64,000 bases of DNA from positions 2,108,001 through 2,172,000 of the forward strand of contig NZ_CP055153.1 of NCBI RefSeq assembly GCF_014075995.1. The letters run 5' to 3'. Numbering within the stretch: the first letter of the stretch is position 1; each line of letters starts with the position of its first letter. The notes beneath the pieces were generated by a model. The model was not told the origin of the DNA, did no database searches, and worked only from the letters and a program-made list of their open reading frames with translations. This document shows, one piece after another, positions 45,688-55,527 of the stretch. Position numbers and translations under genes: made by a program. This stretch comes from Adhaeribacter radiodurans. GTDB lineage: Bacteria > Bacteroidota > Bacteroidia > Cytophagales > Hymenobacteraceae.

Positions 45688-46590
45688 TCAATTTTTAGGT
45701 TCTGGCTCTTTCGTTAACCGGGGCCCTTTCCACAAACGAATATAATTCTTTAAAAAGGTAATTCTTTGGCTTCCAGCTTTGACTAATAGAGGGAGATGAA
45801 TCCAGGAAACCTGGGGGTTCTGATGATGCGCCAAATGTAAATTAAAGTTCAGGTAGAGCCAATTTGCCCAAAATGGCACATGAAGATTATGTGCTCCGTT
45901 GATGATATCTCTTGGGCTGAAGGCATGGTTTACATAATTCTGCGAGGACCACAAAAAACCATGCATCCCAAAGAGCACCAGCCAGCAAGACCATTTAAGT
46001 TGAAGTAAGTAAAAACAAGCCGTGCAAAATAACAAAATAAGCCAGCTCTCTACCATTGATCGCTTAACCTTTTGTTCTTGCTCACTCCCCTTTATGAAGC
46101 CTGCGATTTCTTTGTGAGAACGAAAAAATTTGGTAAATAATAAGCGTGGTGCAAAGGCGAATAGTATTACTGCCAACCAAAGAGCAAAATAGCCCAACCC
46201 AATCATCATGGCATATAAGTTACCATATCGGCGCCATTTTTCCTGGTGCTCATAATACAGGTCCCACATTTCTTCATCGGTTCGGTTCTTTTTATGATGC
46301 TTTAAATGACAATGTTTAAAAAAGCTATAAGGCACTATAAACAGGGTACACAACCATCGTCCCATAAAAGCATTCATTTTTTCATTAGGATGAAGAATAT
46401 TGTGTTCGGCTTCGTGTATAAGAGAATAAACAGGTACCATGATAAAAGCAAACATAATCCCATACATAATTACCCATCCTAAGTGAGTAGCATGAGAAGC
46501 TTTCCACAATAAAGAGAAATAGGAAACTGTACAAACAGCAGTAAGAATGATGTTTGTTTTAACCGGTATTTTATATAAATTCAACAACAC
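45688..46590 (-). CDS. Fatty-acid desaturase/hydroxylase-type membrane di-iron enzyme
   Basis: About 300 residues from GTG 46590, which lies 6 bp after the stop of the BtaA-like gene. Three histidine boxes mark the family: HEAEHN (near residue 64), HCHLKHHKKN (near 92) and HLAHHQNP (near 255). Four hydrophobic helices surround them (NIILTAVCTVSYFSLLW, IMYGIMFAFIMVPVYSLI, YAMMIGLGYFALWLAVILFA, LILLFCTACFYLLQLKWSCW). Such enzymes use a di-iron centre and O2 to desaturate or hydroxylate acyl chains or alkanes in the inner membrane. Last gene of the AAR-ADO operon, so it probably modifies the chain of the operon's product. Confidence 0.82.
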   Translation of the reverse strand: MLLNLYKIPVKTNIILTAVCTVSYFSLLWKASHATHLGWVIMYGIMFAFIMVPVYSLIHEAEHNILHPNEKMNAFMGRWLCTLFIVPYSFFKHCHLKHHKKNRTDEEMWDLYYEHQEKWRRYGNLYAMMIGLGYFALWLAVILFAFAPRLLFTKFFRSHKEIAGFIKGSEQEQKVKRSMVESWLILLFCTACFYLLQLKWSCWLVLFGMHGFLWSSQNYVNHAFSPRDIINGAHNLHVPFWANWLYLNFNLHLAHHQNPQVSWIHLPLLVKAGSQRITFLKNYIRLWKGPRLTKEPEPKN

Positions 46591-46596
46591 TGGTTT

Positions 46597-47706
46597 TTAT
46601 TTAACAATGGTGTAAGCCGCTACTTTGCCATATACAAAAGACCGATCTTGGAATTGAATCTCCTTACTCAGATCACTGTCTTGAATAATGTTGCTCTGCA
46701 GATTTTCCGGCACCTCTCTCGGAATCATTAAATTGCGGAAAATAAGTCGGGCCCCGGGCTTGCTGGTGCGTAGTACTTCTGAAAATAACTTGTGAGTATC
46801 GGCCTTATCCATCAATTCACAGATGTTGGATAAGGCCATTGCGTCAAATAAATTATCCTGCTGTACTTCCAACCAATATTTACTATCGGCTGTTACCGGA
46901 TGGATCCGATCTATGTTTTTTTTAATAACATTAAAATTCTCCTGTTGTAAATAAGCAGGAATGCTTTTTTCATTCTGATAGTGCCCCAGTAAATAAAGTG
47001 CAAGAAAATAATTGGTTTGTACGGGCAAATCACAGATGGCATGGCCAGCTCTTTTGTGAAAACTTTCCGAAAAGGATGCGGAGCCATCATCAAAATGGAA
47101 ATAATCACCATCTAACCCTCCTTTTGCTAAACGTTTTTTATTGAACAAAGTCTTGAATATCCATTGCCATCGACCATTGTTCCATTCCGTATCATAAAGC
47201 TTTTTTTGTTCCTCTAAGGTTTTTAATCCAAACAACCTCTTTGTTTTTCCATATCCTTGTAAAGTGCGCAGTAGCCAGCTCGCGATTTTTACAAATCGTT
47301 CATACCGGCCATTCATGATGATCCCTTTTTCTATGAGACTATTATTGTTCAACCAAAAGGACCTGGCTTCGGGAGAAAGGTCAGATATCAGTTTTCGAAA
47401 AATAAGTGAACGTTTAGGGTGATGGCGGAGTCCGAGAAATGCCAATAATTCTTCGTAGTCAAGATACCGAAAAGCAGCTTGTTTTAACTCCATCAGATAA
47501 GTTTGAGCGGCATTTATATCTACGCAATAAATTTGTCTCGGATTAAAACGCAGAAAGCCCAGTGTATTACATCCTCCGGAGGTAATAGTAAAAACAGTAT
47601 CATCTGCTTTTATTTGCAAAGCTCTTTCATCCATAGCTGGATCTTCCCAGTTATGAGTGAAAATCAATTTGCTTAGCTGAACTTGTCCTTTGGTTTCAGG
47701 CTTCAT
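46597..47706 (-). CDS. BtaA-like 3-amino-3-carboxypropyl transferase (DUF3419)
   Basis: A 369-residue protein matching the family of BtaA, the S-adenosylmethionine:diacylglycerol 3-amino-3-carboxypropyl transferase that makes the homoserine head group of betaine lipids. Visible motifs are KLIFTHNWEDPAMDERALQI, DDTVFTITSGGCNTLGFLRF (SAM loop), YCVDINAAQTYLMELKQAAF and the later LSNICELMDKADTHKLFSEV. It is shorter than Rhodobacter BtaA. Its start overlaps the end of the AAR-like gene by 11 bp, so translation is coupled. No BtaB methyltransferase is nearby, so the acceptor or final product may differ from betaine lipid. Confidence 0.8.
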   Translation of the reverse strand: MKPETKGQVQLSKLIFTHNWEDPAMDERALQIKADDTVFTITSGGCNTLGFLRFNPRQIYCVDINAAQTYLMELKQAAFRYLDYEELLAFLGLRHHPKRSLIFRKLISDLSPEARSFWLNNNSLIEKGIIMNGRYERFVKIASWLLRTLQGYGKTKRLFGLKTLEEQKKLYDTEWNNGRWQWIFKTLFNKKRLAKGGLDGDYFHFDDGSASFSESFHKRAGHAICDLPVQTNYFLALYLLGHYQNEKSIPAYLQQENFNVIKKNIDRIHPVTADSKYWLEVQQDNLFDAMALSNICELMDKADTHKLFSEVLRTSKPGARLIFRNLMIPREVPENLQSNIIQDSDLSKEIQFQDRSFVYGKVAAYTIVK

Positions 47707-48799
47707 TTTTCAAAATCATTTCGCTTTCCAGACAACCCTGTTCATCAAACAAAGGAGCCGTTACAATACCATGTTTCGCCGCCATAGCCCGTATTTCTGC
47801 CATGGCCTGGGTGGTAATATTACCTCTACCCATTGAATACGAAACGGGGTTATTTTCCATTGCCAGAACTACTGACTCCAAAATGCAGCCATGCGATACA
47901 TCTTGGATGGCAAACTGATAAATGTGTTGCTTATAATCCTGACTACTTGTAAAGCCCCCTTTTACCATTCCCATACCGCCAAAAAATAAGCGACGTTCTT
48001 GAAGTTCTGGAGAAGAATGTAAGTTTTTAGGATAACCCGCATCACAAATAATTGCGTGCTTTGGTAATAACCCCATATCACAATTGTGTAATAAAGAACT
48101 AGCTACACAAATAACCATATCGGCTTGCGGCAGCAGGTCATTGATATGAACCGAACTTATGGCTTTAATATTTTCTTTGCCCAACAAGGCTTGTTGTTTT
48201 TGCAAAGGACCGGATTGTCTGGCATTTAATAGTAATTGCTTTACCTTGCCGGCAAAATAAGTAACACAAGCTCTACCAATATCGCCGGTAGCACCAATAA
48301 TTAGTAACTTGGATTCACTTAGCGGTTGCTCCCATAATTTGCTTGCTTTTTCTATTCCTTCAGCAATAAATGCTGCTGTTAAGGTATTACCAGTTGTAAA
48401 ACTTGTCTGCTTCAGTTGGGTAATACTATTATTTCCGCATTCTAATAGTATAGAAGTAAATCCCCCTAATGAAACTACATTAGCTCCCAAAGAGGCGGCA
48501 CAAGCACAGGCATCTTTAACTTTATTCAGATTCTTGTGAAGGTATTTACTGTCTAATTCATCCGGAGAAATAAAGGTTTCTATATATGAACCATGCACAA
48601 CTCCTCGCACCGCGGATACCATTTTGATATCGAATAATTTACGGGGAGGAATAAAAGAATAAACTTCTTTTATTTTTTCTACTGATAAGGGTGCATTATT
48701 CTCTTTCTGCCGTAGGGCATTTACAAAGCGCTCCACTTTTGTCCACTTATCCTGGTGGCCTATTATGGCGAAATTTAAGCGGGAAGGTTGATGACCCAT
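47696..48799 (-). CDS. Acyl-ACP reductase (AAR)-like, fatty aldehyde-forming
   Basis: A 367-residue homologue of cyanobacterial long-chain acyl-ACP reductase, which reduces acyl-ACP to fatty aldehyde with NADPH. Shared motifs: SLGGFTSILLE (residues 110-120; GGFSSI in cyanobacteria), FTTGNTLTAAF (134-144; FTTGNTHTA), the Rossmann loop IIGATGDIGRACV (168-179), ICDAGYPKNL (251-260; VDGGYPKN) and the catalytic Cys305 in HGCILESVVLAME, which corresponds to Cys294 of Synechococcus AAR (FACFAEAILLEFE). The N-terminal acyl-binding region begins LNFAIIGHQ. The gene overlaps the ADO-like gene by 25 bp and the BtaA-like gene by 11 bp. Confidence 0.88.
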   Translation of the reverse strand: MGHQPSRLNFAIIGHQDKWTKVERFVNALRQKENNAPLSVEKIKEVYSFIPPRKLFDIKMVSAVRGVVHGSYIETFISPDELDSKYLHKNLNKVKDACACAASLGANVVSLGGFTSILLECGNNSITQLKQTSFTTGNTLTAAFIAEGIEKASKLWEQPLSESKLLIIGATGDIGRACVTYFAGKVKQLLLNARQSGPLQKQQALLGKENIKAISSVHINDLLPQADMVICVASSLLHNCDMGLLPKHAIICDAGYPKNLHSSPELQERRLFFGGMGMVKGGFTSSQDYKQHIYQFAIQDVSHGCILESVVLAMENNPVSYSMGRGNITTQAMAEIRAMAAKHGIVTAPLFDEQGCLESEMILKNEA

Positions 48800-49515
48800 T
48801 GCAGCGTTTTTTCGCCTGGCAAGCCTATTCGATCCAAGGTTTTCATATATAAGTTCAAGGCGTTACCTCGCATGGTAGTTACATCCAGCGATACATTGGG
48901 CAATGATTCCTTCATACACGTTCCTTTACAAACTCCACAATGTCCTTTTAAATCAGTTTGAGCCGTCCACTCGGCTAATATCCCCATACAATCCCAATGA
49001 ATCGCTTCTACTTTTTGGTAAAAAGCAAAAGAGTCTTTATTCATTTCAGCCTGCAACAGATTAATAGAATGTTCAATATGTTCTTCTTCTTCTGCCGAGA
49101 TGGCCCTGAACAAGGCACCAATTTCATTATCTAAGACTTGGCCAACATCATGGTACATACTTACCGCAAAGCACTCCAGCATTACTTCCTGGATAATGAT
49201 GCAGCCAATGCAATCTTTCTGCTTAGCATATTTTAAGAAACAATCCCGCACATTTTTCCAATAATATCCTTCCATATTAATGATAGGCTGCAGCCCAAAT
49301 TGCTTGGCCACCGCGATGAAACCCTCAGCATGGTTTCGTTCGCAGTTAGCATGTTCTACCGCTTCCATTTTTTCGTGTACATCATCAATGGCACCAGCCA
49401 AAGAGGCAAAATTGGACATCCCAATGAGCTCTCCGGTAATAGCTTGGGATAATATATCCGTTATAACGGCTTGTTGTTCGGCAGCAATCGGTTCGGATAA
49501 TAGCGGCTTTTCCAT
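48775..49515 (-). CDS. Aldehyde-deformylating oxygenase (ADO)-like di-iron protein
   Basis: With ATG 49515 the protein has 246 residues. Ligands of the ferritin-like di-iron centre of cyanobacterial ADO are all present at nearly identical positions: Glu29 (GEL), Glu59 and His62 (CERNHAEGF), Glu114 (LECFAVSMYHD), Glu143 and His146 (ExxH in EEEEHIEHS). The spacing 3-52-29-3 equals that recalled for Synechococcus ADO (60/63/115/144/147). The segment CIIIQEVMLECFAV mirrors CLLIQALIIECFAI of ADO. ADO converts fatty aldehyde plus O2 to alkane and formate. The C-terminal 55 residues are unusual, with GHCGVCKGTC (Cys193, 196, 200). The frame also opens at TTG 49533, but the ATG is 10 bp after the GNAT stop and preferred. 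Confidence 0.87.
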   Translation of the reverse strand: MEKPLLSEPIAAEQQAVITDILSQAITGELIGMSNFASLAGAIDDVHEKMEAVEHANCERNHAEGFIAVAKQFGLQPIINMEGYYWKNVRDCFLKYAKQKDCIGCIIIQEVMLECFAVSMYHDVGQVLDNEIGALFRAISAEEEEHIEHSINLLQAEMNKDSFAFYQKVEAIHWDCMGILAEWTAQTDLKGHCGVCKGTCMKESLPNVSLDVTTMRGNALNLYMKTLDRIGLPGEKTLQWVINLPA

Positions 49516-49525
49516 GGATATTATT

Positions 49526-50572
49526 TTATACAAGTGAAAAATCTTCGTAAATCACACTATGACTGATCTCATCTACCATTTCGGAATGCCCGGCTAAGCT
49601 AGTCAACAATCCGTGGGATATAAATATAAATTGCTTCCAGCGATCCATTAACTTTATGAGTCGTTCATCATTTTCATTTATTGCAATATTCAAAAAATGG
49701 TAATTATTGTCGAAGGCCCAGTGCCGAGCTTGTTGGATGACACTGACCAGGTCTGCTTCCTTATTATTTTCTACCCCTAAGTATCGTACGTAGGCAATGC
49801 GCAACGCTTCATTCTTCTGGGGCAAGGTTGGTATTGAAATAAAAGCACTTACCCCTTTTAATAAATTTAACAGAAGAGCTAAACTAAATGGATAATCAAG
49901 TACCACATTTTGTTTATAACTGCTTGTATCAGTAATAGAAATGGCTGCACTTATAAAACCCGAATTTTCTTTTATGAAATGAATACAGCCATCTAAATGA
50001 TTAATAACCGGGTGAAAACGGTATCGTTGATAAAAGGATGTATAAAAACAATTCAATTTATTGTTTACATCGATACCTTCCAAAACGTGGTAACCAGGCG
50101 ACGTTCTTCGCGGTAAAACCTGATATATAAAGAATCGACCCATTCTTTTAAACTGCGGGATACCTAATCTTCCATCAAAAAAAGGCATGACCGCCTGATT
50201 ACCATCTGCGGCAGTACACAATAACAAGTCAGCATTGTGTTTCTTAAGTTCATCATACATGTGCCCCACTAAACGATAAGCAAGAGAACTTCCTTTTAAA
50301 AAAGGATGCACTTTTAAATCACCCAAATAGAATACTGGGGTTTGATTTTGCCTATACATAAAATTTTGCCTGGCTGCGGTAAAACATCCTACTATTTCTT
50401 TATTTTCATTTTCGGCTACCAGAGCTATGAATTCTCCTCTTTGTCGCAGCAGTTCAAAAAAATCTGGATGGCGATCTACTCGCAAACTAATAACCCCTTT
50501 CATGGGAGTAAGCCCCGTAAGGGTTATCAGTTTTTCTGAATCAAACGGCACTGCGTTCCGAATCTTAAACAT
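49526..50572 (-). CDS. GNAT-family N-acyltransferase, first gene of the AAR-ADO operon
   Basis: A 348-residue protein with an N-terminal GNAT domain (residues about 1-150): FKIRNAVPFDSEKLI as strand/helix 1, EFIALVAENENKEIVGCF as strands 2-3 and FYLGDLKVHPFLKGSSLAYR as the acetyl- or acyl-CoA-binding strand 4 and loop. The second half (about 190-345) looks like another GNAT-like fold lacking clear motifs. Such tandem-GNAT proteins can transfer acyl groups from acyl-CoA or acyl-ACP to amines. Its position ahead of ADO, AAR, BtaA-like and desaturase genes with minimal spacing (10 bp to ADO) argues for a role in the same pathway, possibly N-acylating an amino-lipid. The substrate is inferred only. 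Confidence 0.72.
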   Translation of the reverse strand: MFKIRNAVPFDSEKLITLTGLTPMKGVISLRVDRHPDFFELLRQRGEFIALVAENENKEIVGCFTAARQNFMYRQNQTPVFYLGDLKVHPFLKGSSLAYRLVGHMYDELKKHNADLLLCTAADGNQAVMPFFDGRLGIPQFKRMGRFFIYQVLPRRTSPGYHVLEGIDVNNKLNCFYTSFYQRYRFHPVINHLDGCIHFIKENSGFISAAISITDTSSYKQNVVLDYPFSLALLLNLLKGVSAFISIPTLPQKNEALRIAYVRYLGVENNKEADLVSVIQQARHWAFDNNYHFLNIAINENDERLIKLMDRWKQFIFISHGLLTSLAGHSEMVDEISHSVIYEDFSLV

Positions 50573-51059: not shown

Positions 51060-52072
51060 ATGATCCCACCCGCAAAACAAAAAGTAGTTGGAATTGATGT
51101 AAGTAAAGATTTTTTGGCCATTAGCTACCTGGTAGAGGAAAAGGTGCAACACTTGGAAGAAGAAAATACCAAAGCTGGTTTTCGGCAGCTAATTAAGGAA
51201 TGTGGCACGGAGAGCCTCTATGTAATGGAAGCAAAACCCCAGATACACGGCATCAGGTCGGTAGGTTTGGCATCTACTATTTGCAACTGGCTTACTACTT
51301 ATTTGAGCAAGGCGCGCAAGGTAGGAGTAGTAAATCCGGTAATTATCAAGCGCTACATCCAGATGCATCTGGGCAAAGGTAAAAGTGGTAAGAAGGATGC
51401 TCAATGGATTCGGCGCTATGGAGAGCAGAATCAAATGACCTCCTGGCAGCCCGAGTAGCCGGTGATCGTCCAATGCCGGCAACTAGAACAAGTTACCGAG
51501 CAACTCAATAAGCAAAGAACCATGGTCATTAACTCTCTGGAGGCGCTGGAGCAACAACCGGTGGTGAGCAAATTAGCCGTGAAAGGCCTCCAGCAAACCT
51601 TAAAAATGCTGAATAAGCAAGTCAAGCAAATCCAGGAAAAGCTACTAGCCACTCTGGAGAATACTTTTAAAAGAGAGATCCAATTACTTTCTTCTATCCC
51701 AGGGATTGGTAAAAAGACCGCCGGAATGTTGCTTTTATTTGCCGGCAGGTTCCATAAAATGGATAATTATTGCCAACTGATTGCCAAAGCGGGTTTATCG
51801 CCTCGGGAATATACTTCCGGCTCGAGTGTTAGAGGAAAGACGCACATCACCAAAATGGGCGGCAGCTTAATCCGCAGCAAATTGTATGTATGCAGCTTTT
51901 CGGCTAAGAAATCCAATGCCGCTTGTAAGGCCCTTTCGAGCGGTTGGTGGCTAAAGGCAAAAATGGCAAACTAGCCTTAATTGCAGTTTGCAATAAGCTC
52001 TTGAAACAGGCATTTGCCATTGTTAAATCGGGTATTCCCTACCAGCTTGATTACACTAAAATTATAACCTAA
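51060..52072 (+). pseudogene. IS110-family transposase with in-frame stop and late frameshift
   Basis: The N-terminal DEDD RuvC-like domain is visible (VVGIDVSKDFLAISYLVEE, LYVMEAKPQIHG, KDAQWIRRYG), then TAG 51456 in the same frame, a coiled coil (KQVKQIQEKLLATLENTFKR) and the C-terminal transposase-20 helix-hairpin-helix with the catalytic Ser region (LLSSIPGIGKKTAGMLLLFA, YCQLIAKAGLSPREYTSGSS). A frameshift near 51940 moves the end to another frame (LFERLVAKGKNGKLALIAVC ... DYTKIIT) stopping at 52070. The metal site appears altered: the family usually has TGxY where this has MEAK. A dead copy. Confidence 0.82.
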
Positions 52073-52242: not shown

Positions 52243-54604
52243 TTAGTTTTTTAATAATGTTAACCGTGGTAACACAATCCGGTACTCTCGATTGTCTTCC
52301 TGGCACCACCAAACTACTACTTGCGCTACTTTGCCACTGGCAAATACATACTCTTGGTTTTGATAACAATGTAAGCGCTCCTTAAACCGAGAGGAGAAGA
52401 GGATTAAACATTTTCCATCTATCTGATAAAGTCCTCCCTCCAGGTTTCTTCCAGCTTCGAGCTTTTCCCCGGATCGAAGTTTCTTTACTTCTTTTACAAT
52501 CTCCGGTTGGCGAAAGTATCCGAGTACCACGTCCCCTATGCCTGGTTCCAACTGAATGGTTTTGGGCTCCGGGTAGAAAGGAGCATCATTCTCAATGGTA
52601 AGCTGGGGCCCCGCAGCTGGTTAAAGAAGAACTGATCGGTATGAATGCGCATAGATAGCCGGGCCCGGGTAATAGCCACGTACACCACCCTCTTCCGGTC
52701 CTCAGATGTGAGCTTGTATTCTTTCAGGAGCAAAAACACGTGGTCAAACTCTTTACCTATGGCCTTGTGCATGGTAGACACTAACACTTTGCTCGTCTCG
52801 GGAAAGAAGAAGTCTTCCGCTTTCACTTCCTGCAGGTAAGCCTGCCACTCTGACCAGTATCGCCGCGGACTGCTGCCTTTTTCGTACACCTCGATGACCT
52901 GAAGGACCAAGTTCAAATTAATGGAGCTGGCAATCTCGCATTTCACGCGCTCCTTACAAGCTTGCCAGTCCACTTCGGAAATAAAGCCCACTTCTTTTTT
53001 GATGCTGGTATGCAGGTAATGGCTAAAGCATTTAAGTTTCAGTAATTGCCGGAGCGAAAAACCCACCTCTTTTAAGATCAGGCGCGCCGGTACATGCTGT
53101 TGCCATAGAGCCTGTTGGACCAGTAAGGATTCTTCGTTGGTGTGGGTTAATACCGCTATGGTGCCCGTTAATTTTTGTTTAACCAAGTCATTTACTAATG
53201 GTACCACCAGGTAGAATCCGCCGAATGGTTCGTAATCTGGATAGTCCCGTTTTGCTGCTTATGGGCCCGTAAAGGCAAATGGGCTTTCAATCTTTCAGAA
53301 GTAATCAAATTCAAAAATTGATTTGAGAAGCTCACCAGGTTAGCGCCAGCCCGGTAGTTTTTACTCTAAAAATAAGCTTTCGCTTGCCATTCCCGCTGGA
53401 AGTTGCGCATAAAAGCCACCGAGGAACCGCGGAACTCGTAAATGTTCTGGTCATCATCCCCCACGACAATTACCCGCACCTCGCCAGCTAACGCGGTAAT
53501 TGTTTGCAAGAACTCATAGTAGAGCAGGTTGGTGCCGCCTTTGCGGACTTTCTCGATCGCATCGCCTCTTTCTAGGGGTGACAATAAACCGTTGATGTAA
53601 ACGGCATTCGTAATATCAAACCGGTAGGCCAACACATCGACCTGATCTTTCATTAAAGCTTGCAGGGGGGAGATGATCACGGTTAATCCCCGGTAAGCTT
53701 CCCCGCGCATCAAGGGGGGTAGTTGAAAGGTCAAGGATTTACCTCCTCCCGTTGGGAAGATAGCTAGCAAGGATTCGCCCCGTAAAGCCGGTTCTACTAC
53801 TAATTGCTGTAAGGGCGTTTCTTACTTTGGGATCAAACTTCCGGAATTCAGGATAACCAAAGTACCGCTGTAAGCTGGCAACTGGGAAATTATACGTGGT
53901 GCAGTAAGTACAATCCGGTTTATTACAGACATTGGCCCGCAGCTGGTGCAGGACTTCGGGTAAATCACGATATTTAAAAAGCAACCAGGGCGGAATGATC
54001 AAATTGGGATCAGGGGCTTGCAGCAAGGATAAGCCATAAGCTAATTGTACAGGTCTTTCTCTAATCAGCCCTATTAAGTCCGCGTTGGCACAAATCTTCC
54101 CTTGGTAGTACCTTACCATTAAACCAATCAAATAAGCCGGCTCGGACCGCAGTAAAGAATGTTCGGAAAAAGTTTAAAGAAGGCCTCGAAGTATTGTTCG
54201 GTACCTAGCAATCCCGAGTAGATATCCAATAAGTCCAGGGGCAAAAGCTGCCAGGCTTCGACGCTTTCCTCGAGTACTTCTTTGGCCAGCTGGGAATCTG
54301 TTACCGGATTGTTAAGATGGTCCCCTAATAATTGGTAATCCTTCACTAACCGGTGATTAGGCCGGTTGGGGAAGAAGAGTGGGGATAGGTAGAGCGTGTC
54401 AATAAACTCTTTATTCAGGAAGGTTGTGCCAATACCCGCTTTTTCTAAGTAAGGAAGATCCTGGGCAAAGATATTGTGCCCGCACAGGTAAGCTGCCTCG
54501 TGCGTGAACAATTCAAAATCACGAATAGACGTACCGTGGCAGGTTTGCCCCTGATAAAGCGCACCGATGCTGCTGATCCTTATTTTAGGCACAGCAATTT
54601 CCAA
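52243..54604 (-). pseudogene. Exonuclease-RecQ-UvrD helicase fusion, collapsed
   Basis: Five minus-strand fragments in different frames add up to one long DNA-processing protein. From 54604: a DnaQ-like exonuclease domain (LEIAVPKIRISSIGAL, CGHNIFAQDLPYL; the first acidic residue is Asn instead of Asp). Then a linker with a CNKPDCTYC cysteine cluster, then RecQ motifs I-III part (LAIFPTGGGKSLTFQLPPLM, TVIISPLQALMKDQVD). The text then jumps inside a helicase sentence to a UvrD-type block (RVIVVGDDDQNIYEFRGSS) and SF1 C-terminal motifs (VLTHTNEESLLVQQALW, VSTMHKAIGKEFDHVFLLL, YVAITRARLSMRIHT). An internal deletion plus at least four frame breaks make it a pseudogene. The architecture is rare: SF2 and SF1 helicases fused to an exonuclease. 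Confidence 0.7.
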
Positions 54605-54654: not shown

Positions 54655-55527
54655 GAGTATGTTTAAAAATTATAGGAGGATAAAATAGAAGAACAAAAAA
54701 AAAGCAGTAGCCGAGTAACTATGAGTGTCTAAATCCTAGTTACGATATCAAAGAAGAAACGGAAGTTTAAACGCTAGCGCAATGGCAATATATAAAAGAG
54801 ATAGTAGATAATGGCCGCAAAAGGAAGCATAATTTAGATTTGGTAGTCAATGCTATTTTGCGTCTTACCAGTACTGGTATGCAATGGCGTAATCTGGAGT
54901 CCACTTATCCACCGTTGGAGTTGGTTTATTACTACTTCCGTAAATGGCAAGCCGATGGCACCTGGTCGAAAGTATTACCCGGGTTAGTAGTAAAAGAACG
55001 CAAAAGGCAGGGACGGCAAAAGTAAGTCAGAGTGGCAGCCGTAGATAGTCAAAGCGTGAAGAAAGGCAGTCTTATTTCCCTGGTTACCGGTGTGGATGGG
55101 GCTAAGTTAGTGAATGGGCGCAAGCGGCATGTAGCTGTTGATACGTTAGGTTTACCGCTGGCGCTACTTGTTTCTTCGGCTCAGGTGCAGGATGGGCAAG
55201 CGGGTATAGAACTGCTCTGGCAATTAGAGCAGGCTTCCGACCAGGTCCAGTTAATTAGAGCTGATCATGCCTACAGCGGCTACTTTAAAGATTGTGCTGA
55301 TTTATCCAACTGGCAGGTAGCTATAAGTCAAAGGCCGGAAACTCAGAAAGGGTTTGTGCCTCAGAAAGGTAGATGGCAGGTAGAAAGAAGCTTTGCCTGG
55401 TTCCACTTCTTTCGTCGCTTGAGCAAAGATTATGAGAAAACAACACGTTCTTCCCTGTGCTTTATGCAAGTAGCTTTTATTCATATTATTCTTGCAAGAT
55501 TACCATCTTGAATTTTTAAACATACTC
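54655..55527 (+). mobile_element. IS5-family (IS427 group) insertion sequence, 873 bp
   Basis: Terminal inverted repeats GAGTATGTTTAAAAATT (left 54655, right on the other strand from 55527) are flanked by the direct repeat TAA (54652-54654 and 55528-55530), the TNA duplication typical of the IS427 group. It carries one transposase gene with an internal stop. Confidence 0.85.
54793..55511 (+). pseudogene. IS5-family transposase with internal stop
   Basis: Part 1 reads IKEIVDNGRKRKHNLDLVVN and AILRLTSTGMQWRNLESTYP (54840-55025 plus upstream codons) and ends RQGRQK at TAA 55023. Part 2 continues in the same frame with VAAVDSQSVKKGSLIS (first Asp), GRKRHVAVDTLGLPLALLVS, RADHAYSGYF (second Asp) and the Glu region QVERSFAWFHFFRRLSKDYE. 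The DDE triad is otherwise intact, and only the one stop (plus a poorly readable N-terminus with stops near 54730-54780) separates it from a working enzyme. Confidence 0.8.

Follow-up and report, generated by a model that had tools for sequence, protein, structure and literature searches.

We propose that a five-gene operon of Adhaeribacter radiodurans, found in the 64,000-nucleotide stretch of DNA analysed here (the window), encodes a branch of the AAR-ADO pathway in Bacteroidota, in which an additional segment of the oxygenase is functionally tied to a BtaA-like transferase (BTA), a reading that we favour, with some reserve, as a whole. The AAR-ADO pair constitutes the alkane route of cyanobacteria. 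Judged by sequence, the AAR-like and ADO-like proteins of the operon are genuine but distant homologues of the cyanobacterial acyl-ACP reductase and aldehyde-deformylating oxygenase, respectively. Since both fall below the NCBI equivalog cut-offs and the cyanobacterial docking residues are mostly not retained, we regard the pair as a sub-branch with putative activity.

The operon of five minus-strand genes described in an earlier sequence-only reading was borne out, with open reading frames for all five present at the coordinates given in Table 1. The ADO-like reading frame spans 48775-49533, and the ATG at 49515 is the start kept in most relatives. Using this start, the GNAT and ADO-like genes are separated by a 10-base gap, the ADO-like and AAR-like genes overlap by 25 bases, the AAR-like gene and BTA overlap by 11 bases, and BTA and the desaturase gene (DES) lie 6 bases apart.

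Table 1. Operon genes and sites of interest, in window positions.
Feature	Coordinates	Strand	Basis
DES, membrane fatty-acid-desaturase-type protein, 300 aa	45688..46590	-	Pfam FA_desaturase 84.5 bits
BTA, DUF3419/BtaA-like protein, 369 aa	46597..47706	-	Pfam DUF3419 256.3 bits, cut-off 28.2
AAR-like acyl-thioester reductase, 367 aa	47696..48799	-	PDB 6jzq AAR E 1.2e-32; TIGR04058 154.7 bits
AAR-like Cys305 codon	47885..47887	-	alignment to C294 of cyanobacterial AAR; codon checked
ADO-like ferritin-fold di-iron protein, 246 aa from ATG 49515	48775..49515	-	PF11266, PDB profile, fold search
ADO-like residues 189-200 (LKGHCGVCKGTC), H-C-x2-C-x3-C motif	48916..48951	-	alignment, length difference, covariation with BTA
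GNAT-family acyltransferase, 348 aa	49526..50572	-	Pfam Acetyltransf_1 35.2 bits, GNAT match at residues 38-137

The operon is rare yet conserved. Because the ADO and AAR genes occur together in all 28 other loci read, and their 25-base overlap (judged by the first start codon) was found again in 21 of these, the arrangement is not a matter of chance; the linkage on which the sequence-only reading depended thus holds in relatives. GNAT is present in 27/28 of these loci, BTA follows AAR in 23/28 and DES occurs in at least 11/28, some contigs ending early. A P450 gene occurs in some relatives, and a redoxin gene is present in two loci. Scanning one genome per species by pattern gave 27 loci under Bacteroidota titles, and 27/27 hold both ADO and AAR. 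In three sampled groups the unit occurs in about 1-1.5% of genomes. As the scan relied on two short peptide patterns, more distant relatives, also in other phyla, could have escaped it. One paper had already noted, on a Flavobacteriaceae-related contig, a gene for a fatty aldehyde decarbonylase. L010, L011 and L013 were judged to be duplicates of L015, L017 and L039 and dropped from the counts, and L041-L059 were left out; L001-L009 fall within loci counted elsewhere or duplicate them, apart from L004, a marginal match to the AAR query (E 8.4e-4) that stands outside the counts. Spread by plasmids or viruses was rejected, no ADO-like match being found in the plasmid collection (E 0.01) or in viral contigs (pattern-limited scan). 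Full-length cyanobacterial comparators were sought in the same plasmids and viral contigs and none was found; the cyanobacterial comparison uses PDB sequence pieces, and the trees were built without cyanobacterial rows.

AAR was the top-ranked family for the AAR-like protein in PDB sequence and NCBIfam searches, the match to 6jzq covering most of its length. Model TIGR04058 matched 29/29 AAR-like members, the window protein scoring below the equivalog cut-off of 449.7 (Table 1), and Pfam gave no match for this protein. A PigE-type assignment was rejected (NF053554, 85.8 bits against 154.7 for TIGR04058; no aminotransferase domain). The motifs picked out in the sequence-only reading, GGFTSI, FTTGNT, GATGDIG and AGYPKN, are all present, the three glycines of the GATGDIG loop being kept in 29/29 rows, and the cysteine claimed for the catalytic position proved to be C305, which aligns by residue count with the catalytic C294 of cyanobacterial AAR and is invariant in 29/29 rows.

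Likewise, ADO was the top-ranked family for the ADO-like protein in PDB sequence, NCBIfam, Pfam and fold searches. The PDB profile search gave E 5.9e-16 to ADO, and PF11266 scored 51.5 bits, above its gathering cut-off of 28; TIGR04059 scored 52 bits, short of its equivalog cut-off of 222.65, and each of these two models was matched by 29/29 members. Profile comparison with the cyanobacterial families, proposed as a check of the earlier reading, bore it out as to ranking, AAR and ADO coming first, but left both proteins far below the NCBIfam equivalog cut-offs. Cyanobacterial ADOs filled ranks 1-26 by E-value when the AlphaFold2 model (pLDDT 93.3) was searched against the PDB with Foldseek, with E-values of 4e-8 to 4e-6 and a best TM of 0.79 (query) and 0.89 (target). 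Other di-iron proteins fit less well by E-value, yet R2-like oxidases among them attain a query TM of 0.72, so that the fold by itself does not establish the reaction. All six positions aligned with what we take to be the di-iron ligands of cyanobacterial ADO (E29, E59, H62, E114, E143 and H146) are invariant in 29/29 rows, in line with the ligand set noted in the sequence-only reading.

The docking surface appears to have diverged. Section 7 of PMC7089970 describes R73-E196, R79-E196 and K80-E200 as docking pairs between cyanobacterial AAR and ADO. The places of R73, R79 and K80 are occupied by Y86, N92 and K93 in the window protein; the K80 equivalent is kept in 29/29 AAR-like rows, the R73 place is H or K in 9/29 and the R79 place is K or R in 5/29, and position 88 in the same region is basic (R or K) in 23/29. 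On the oxygenase side, T213, G217 and N218 stand at the places of helix 7 residues E196, E200 and D201 and are acidic in 3/29, 0/29 and 0/29 rows, although this part of the alignment lacks significance by itself (1.1 bits). Immediately ahead of the helix to which AAR docks in cyanobacteria, the ADO-like protein contains additional sequence bearing an H-C-x2-C-x3-C motif, the stretch before helix 7 being 18 residues longer than in cyanobacterial ADO. Among 20 matched ADO chains the same stretch has no net insertion, and no Cys was found in it among the five alignments listed.

Neither this Cys/His insert nor its link to BTA figured in the sequence-only reading. In four BTA-less loci that retain the ADO-AAR core, the motif His is replaced by Ser and a fourth Cys is gained, and the absence of BTA and the change of motif coincide in these 4 rows, out of 28 whose BTA state is known; G-H-C occurs in 24/24 BTA-bearing rows. 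Trees reject a single origin of the four BTA-less rows, which fall into at least two lineages with two events firmly supported, the same Cys and the same Ser appearing in clades that the trees keep apart. Only four columns of the ADO-like alignment separate these rows from the others, all adjacent and all in the motif, a number reached by 0/2000 random four-row sets in shuffles that ignore kinship, and the same test found no separating column in the AAR and GNAT alignments. L023 was excluded from the association counts, its BTA state being unknown since the contig ends 34 bases after AAR; it carries G-H-C, no BTA was found in that genome, and it would be an exception if counted as BTA-less. 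The L036 contig ends 150 bases after AAR, its next gene beginning like the P450 gene of L033. A broader search for further BTA-less loci added none, the matches being genomes already in the set or judged to be so.

DUF3419/BtaA proteins presumably form a family of SAM-dependent 3-amino-3-carboxypropyl transferases. BTA is the sole DUF3419 match in the genome. A sequence search found no PDB relative at E 0.1, and a fold search with the BTA model returned only methyltransferase-type and similar matches (TM <=0.34 among the 50 listed), which did not refine its function. Neither the five operon genes nor the two that lie downstream include a BtaB-like N-methyltransferase. Acetyltransf_1 was matched by 27/28 GNAT members.

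Taken together, these proteins probably support aldehyde formation followed by C1 removal, as in an AAR/ADO-type pathway. A fatty acyl-ACP or acyl-CoA would be loaded onto Cys305 of the AAR-like protein and reduced with NAD(P)H, releasing a fatty aldehyde, which the ADO-like di-iron enzyme, with O2 and electrons, would convert by loss of C1 to a chain one carbon shorter (an alkane, alkene or close product). The desaturase, or the P450 in some relatives, may modify the chain, and the targets of the GNAT and BtaA-like proteins may be a linked lipid or the enzyme complex. Just ahead of helix 7, the insert would fold into a putative metal knuckle (3Cys+His or 4Cys) that remodels the surface where AAR docks in cyanobacteria and is functionally tied to BTA, a transferase that we read as acting on or with the oxygenase. 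Quite improbably, BTA could modify the oxygenase itself, placing a 3-amino-3-carboxypropyl group from SAM on its His192 as a bacterial counterpart of the first diphthamide step, and so build a modified metal or docking site; once BTA is lost, the useless His would become Ser and a fourth Cys would complete the site. Plain alkane synthesis offers no evident role for GNAT or BTA, which weighs against the pathway reading, as do the missed equivalog cut-offs, the docking residues mostly not retained and the TM of the R2-like oxidases.

The product may instead be an aminolipid rather than a hydrocarbon, a possible but rather doubtful alternative: the AAR-like protein would make an aldehyde, the ADO-like enzyme would oxidise a nitrogen- or aldehyde-containing lipid without C1 loss, BTA would add a homoserine-like 3-amino-3-carboxypropyl group and GNAT would acylate its amine. 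BTA (23/28) and GNAT (27/28) are regular members of the loci, and the amine could remain free for acylation because a methyltransferase like the rhizobial DUF3419 neighbour is absent from the five operon genes and the two downstream. However, the best-ranked sequence and fold relatives of the oxygenase are deformylating enzymes, and four loci lack BTA yet retain the ADO-AAR core. The ADO-like protein is very improbably a ferritin- or rubrerythrin-like protective protein that merely resembles ADO, even though Pfam Rubrerythrin matches 29/29 members, two encapsulin-linked ferritin models match 18 and 9 (all three with best E-values weaker than those of the ADO models) and two loci hold the redoxin gene; cyanobacterial ADO comes first in both profile and fold rankings and an AAR homologue is linked in 28/28 loci. 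The ferritin/rubrerythrin assignment, which ranks below ADO by E-value in sequence and fold, was accordingly rejected.

The link between BTA and the motif could also be accidental, rare variants having arisen or spread by gene conversion or transfer while BTA was lost by chance in the same lineages; we consider this unlikely but not negligible. The independent events are few (two firmly supported), a sign test comparing independent pairs yields p 0.5 and is unable to reach significance, and the motif was noticed in the alignment rather than predicted. Without L036 and L023, 7 columns separate the rows and 4/2925 three-row sets reach that, the actual set included, and L023 combines G-H-C with no BTA found, though its contig ends. 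Against an accident stand the confinement of the four-row signal to adjacent motif columns, unmatched by random sets if kinship is ignored, its absence from AAR and GNAT, and the recurrence of the same Cys and Ser in separate clades. The match of BTA with four oxygenase residues points to interaction or modification.

The presence in Bacteroidota of a conserved operon for diverged AAR and ADO would extend the range of makers of hydrocarbons or aldehyde-derived lipids. Electron supply may be a cause of low ADO activity. The operon would be a source of ADO variants that carry their own Cys/His site, which may alter docking or electron supply; low activity is noted in an abstract as a limit of ADO.

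With cyanobacterial ADO (TIGR04059, PF11266; PDB 4rc7, 5k53, 2oc5), the ADO-like protein shares the predicted fold, the six ligand positions and the linkage to an AAR homologue, but it is 16-19% identical in structure alignments, has 18 extra residues with the Cys/His motif, appears to lack the acidic helix 7 docking residues, in a stretch without significant alignment, and misses the equivalog cut-off by a wide margin. Cyanobacterial AAR (TIGR04058; PDB 6jzq) and the AAR-like protein have in common the catalytic Cys, the GATGDIG loop, an R189 equivalent and a match over most of the length, whereas the latter falls below the equivalog cut-off, lacks R73/R79 in most members and has other operon partners. 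PigE-type reductase-aminotransferases (NF053554; PDB 4ppm) contain a reductase domain of the same family, but the AAR-like protein scores lower against them and carries no fused aminotransferase. Finally, BTA shares with BtaA, the ACP transferase of betaine lipids (DUF3419), its family and the ITSGGCN and DINPAQ-type motifs, which we take to function in SAM binding. It differs in being 27% identical to a rhizobial member, whose gene adjoins that of a class I methyltransferase (Rhizobium), in belonging to an operon free of a BtaB-like methyltransferase and in being tied to the ADO-AAR pair.

The closely packed five-gene cluster on the minus strand proposed by the sequence-only reading was borne out (see table). 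When relatives are aligned, the ATG at 49515 emerges as the favoured start of the ADO-like gene, which leaves a gap of 10 bases after the GNAT gene and a 25-base overlap with the AAR-like gene. The AAR-like and DUF3419/BtaA-like (BTA) genes overlap by 11 bases, and 6 bases separate the latter from the desaturase gene. Upstream of the GNAT gene lies an AT-rich stretch, with transposase-like pieces, judged by eye, beyond it. At 39.1%, the GC content of the operon lies below that of equally long stretches of the window, which average 42.6% (sd 2.5).

Coordinates of the operon, of neighbouring features and of features at homologous loci in other genomes
Feature	Location	Remarks
Operon	window 45688-50572	minus strand; desaturase, DUF3419/BtaA-like, AAR-like, ADO-like, GNAT
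IS110-type transposase-like pieces	window 51060-51974	plus strand, upstream of operon; two ORFs, by eye
Decayed stretch beside operon	window 52243-54604, 55032-55511	short ORFs resembling RecQ/UvrD-type helicase gene fragments, plus a transposase-like fragment, by eye
Redoxin (AhpC/TSA) gene	L033:8755-9474, L036:8706-9401	between ADO-like and AAR-like genes; the BTA-less Flavobacteriaceae pair
Related cytochrome P450 genes beside operon	L016:10916-12283	
	L019:12319-13698	opposite strand
	L029:12520-12942	cut
	L033:10479-11915	
DUF3419 gene cluster of another kind	L061:523-8507	Roseinatronobacter plasmid; amid genes annotated UbiA, PEP/pyruvate-binding, two hypothetical, AMP-binding

The ADO-like protein passed the gathering score of PF11266 (51.5 bits, cut-off 28), and all 29 members, the window protein included, matched both PF11266 and TIGR04059 at E 0.001. 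A profile of these 29 rows retrieved cyanobacterial ADOs from the PDB (E 5.9e-16); the six di-iron ligand positions of cyanobacterial ADO were aligned in this search and are invariant in 29/29, in agreement with the sequence-only reading. Cyanobacterial ADOs also occupied Foldseek ranks 1-26 for the AlphaFold2 model (mean pLDDT 93.3), with E values of 4e-8 to 4e-6 and TM scores of up to 0.79 by query and 0.89 by target; rank 27 had E 4e-4 and TM 0.59, and among the lower ranks R2-like oxidases had query TM scores as high as 0.72, with E near 1e-3. The AAR-like protein, without a Pfam match at E 0.001, aligned with AAR structure 6jzq at E 1.2e-32 and scored 154.7 bits with TIGR04058 versus 85.8 with the model of PigE, a reductase-aminotransferase fusion. 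According to PMC7089970, C294 of AAR is strictly conserved and key for catalysis; by residue count on the 6jzq alignment its partner is C305, which is invariant in all 29 rows, as are the three glycines of the GATGDIG loop and R194, the partner of R189. The proposed kinship with AAR and ADO is supported as distant homology. Neither protein is an equivalog of its cyanobacterial counterpart: both scores fall well under the NCBIfam equivalog cut-offs. On Methylocystis and Rhodovulum plasmids, matches to the AAR-like protein also occur within genes annotated as class III aminotransferases, which looks like the PigE architecture.

Scanning one genome per species with an alignment of five ADO-like proteins and two short peptide patterns yielded 27 loci, all recorded as Bacteroidota, among them Algoriphagus, Aquiflexum, Robiginitalea, Aestuariibaculum, Tamlana, Muricauda, Maribacter, Ferruginibacter, Chitinophagaceae and Rhodocytophaga. 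With one further locus, L012, these make 28 besides the window. The gene linkage proved conserved, ADO and AAR standing together in 28/28; GNAT was present in at least 27, BTA in at least 23 and the desaturase in at least 11, lower bounds since some contigs end early. With the first start codon used throughout, 21 of the 28 show the same 25-base overlap of ADO and AAR. Gene order is GNAT-ADO-DES-AAR-BTA in L012 and in a Rhodocytophaga aerolata locus, and in L014, whose contig starts near ADO, GNAT lies downstream of the desaturase. ADO is the best conserved of the proteins, with a mean pairwise identity of 0.62, and GNAT the least (0.38).

The unit is rare. Counting the genomes on which each sample was centred, it was found in 5/390 genomes of the window's order (and is absent from two same-genus genomes in that sample), in 4/397 of the family of the Muricauda locus (L033) and in 6/394 of the family of a Chitinophagaceae locus (L035); within the genera of these two loci only the centre genome carries it (1/71 and 1/101). 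Across the phylum, an AAR query gave 3/395 genomes including its own, one of them marginal at E 8.4e-4. Two Algoriphagus loci fall in separate parts of the ADO tree, which together with the low GC content of the operon suggests spread by horizontal transfer. Among the titles and abstract openings listed from the open-licence literature, we found no AAR-ADO operon in Bacteroidota.

No BTA gene follows AAR in four loci, L033, L036 (Flavobacteriaceae), L035 and L038 (both Chitinophagaceae), and a search of ten genomes found no BTA match anywhere in these four and one match in each of five genomes with BTA-bearing loci. Three of these genomes were assembled from metagenomes and could be incomplete; the record of L033 bears no such label. 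In L033 and L036 a P450 gene occupies the place of BTA; in L036 the contig breaks off after the first 40 residues of the P450. The redoxins of this pair have N-termini that look hydrophobic by eye.

Presence of BTA covaries with a Cys motif in an extra segment of the ADO-like protein. G191-H192-C193 is found in each of the 24 BTA-bearing rows, that of the window among them, and position 189 is L, I, S or G there; exactly the four BTA-less rows have C189-x2-S192-C193. Full separation of the two groups occurs in four adjacent ADO columns of 260 (203-206) and in 0/375 AAR and 0/407 GNAT columns, the GNAT test having three BTA-less rows as L038 lacks a nearby GNAT. The tenth genome searched, that of L023, keeps G-H-C, and no BTA was found there; with the contig stopping 34 bases past AAR, this locus is uninformative or, at worst, an exception.

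Chance is one possible reading of this coupling. Independent pairs on starred branches number two, too few for a sign test. None of 2000 random four-row sets reached four separating ADO columns (maximum 2), in shuffles that ignore kinship. When L036 and L023 are set aside, seven ADO columns separate three rows from 24, a value reached by 4 of 2925 three-row sets, the observed one counted; the corresponding two AAR and six GNAT columns, reached by 689/2925 and 142/325 sets, are not unusual. On an ADO tree built without the motif columns, BTA and the motif each require three changes and split the rows identically. Since the AU test rejects a single clade of the four (p 9e-102 for ADO, 7.5e-6 for AAR) and does not reject a clade of L033 and L036 (p 0.144), there is support for the switch having happened independently at least twice, and it may have happened a third time. 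The boldest reading is that BTA may modify His192, by analogy with the first step in making diphthamide, the modified His of eEF2. We think it likeliest that BTA docks on a rebuilt helix-7 surface, and the best-supported reading of the operon's core is an AAR-ADO pathway.

Cyanobacterial AAR docks on ADO helix 7 through R73-E196, R79-E196 and K80-E200, according to PMC7089970. The window ADO-like protein instead has T213, G217 and N218, columns acidic in 3/29, 0/29 and 0/29, a weak comparison because this stretch aligns at only 1.1 bits. On the AAR side the counterparts are Y86, N92 and K93: K93 is present in 29/29, a basic residue occurs at the other two columns in 9/29 and 5/29, and nearby position 88 is R or K in 23/29, so some basic residues are left. 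Among 20 PDB ADO chains no net length change was seen just before helix 7, and five PDB ADO alignments, all with identical letters over the stretch, contain no Cys there. Compared with cyanobacterial ADO, the Bacteroidota proteins carry 18 extra residues at this point (41 versus 23 between the PDB-aligned blocks), and within this longer segment C193-x2-C196-x3-C200 is invariant in 29/29.
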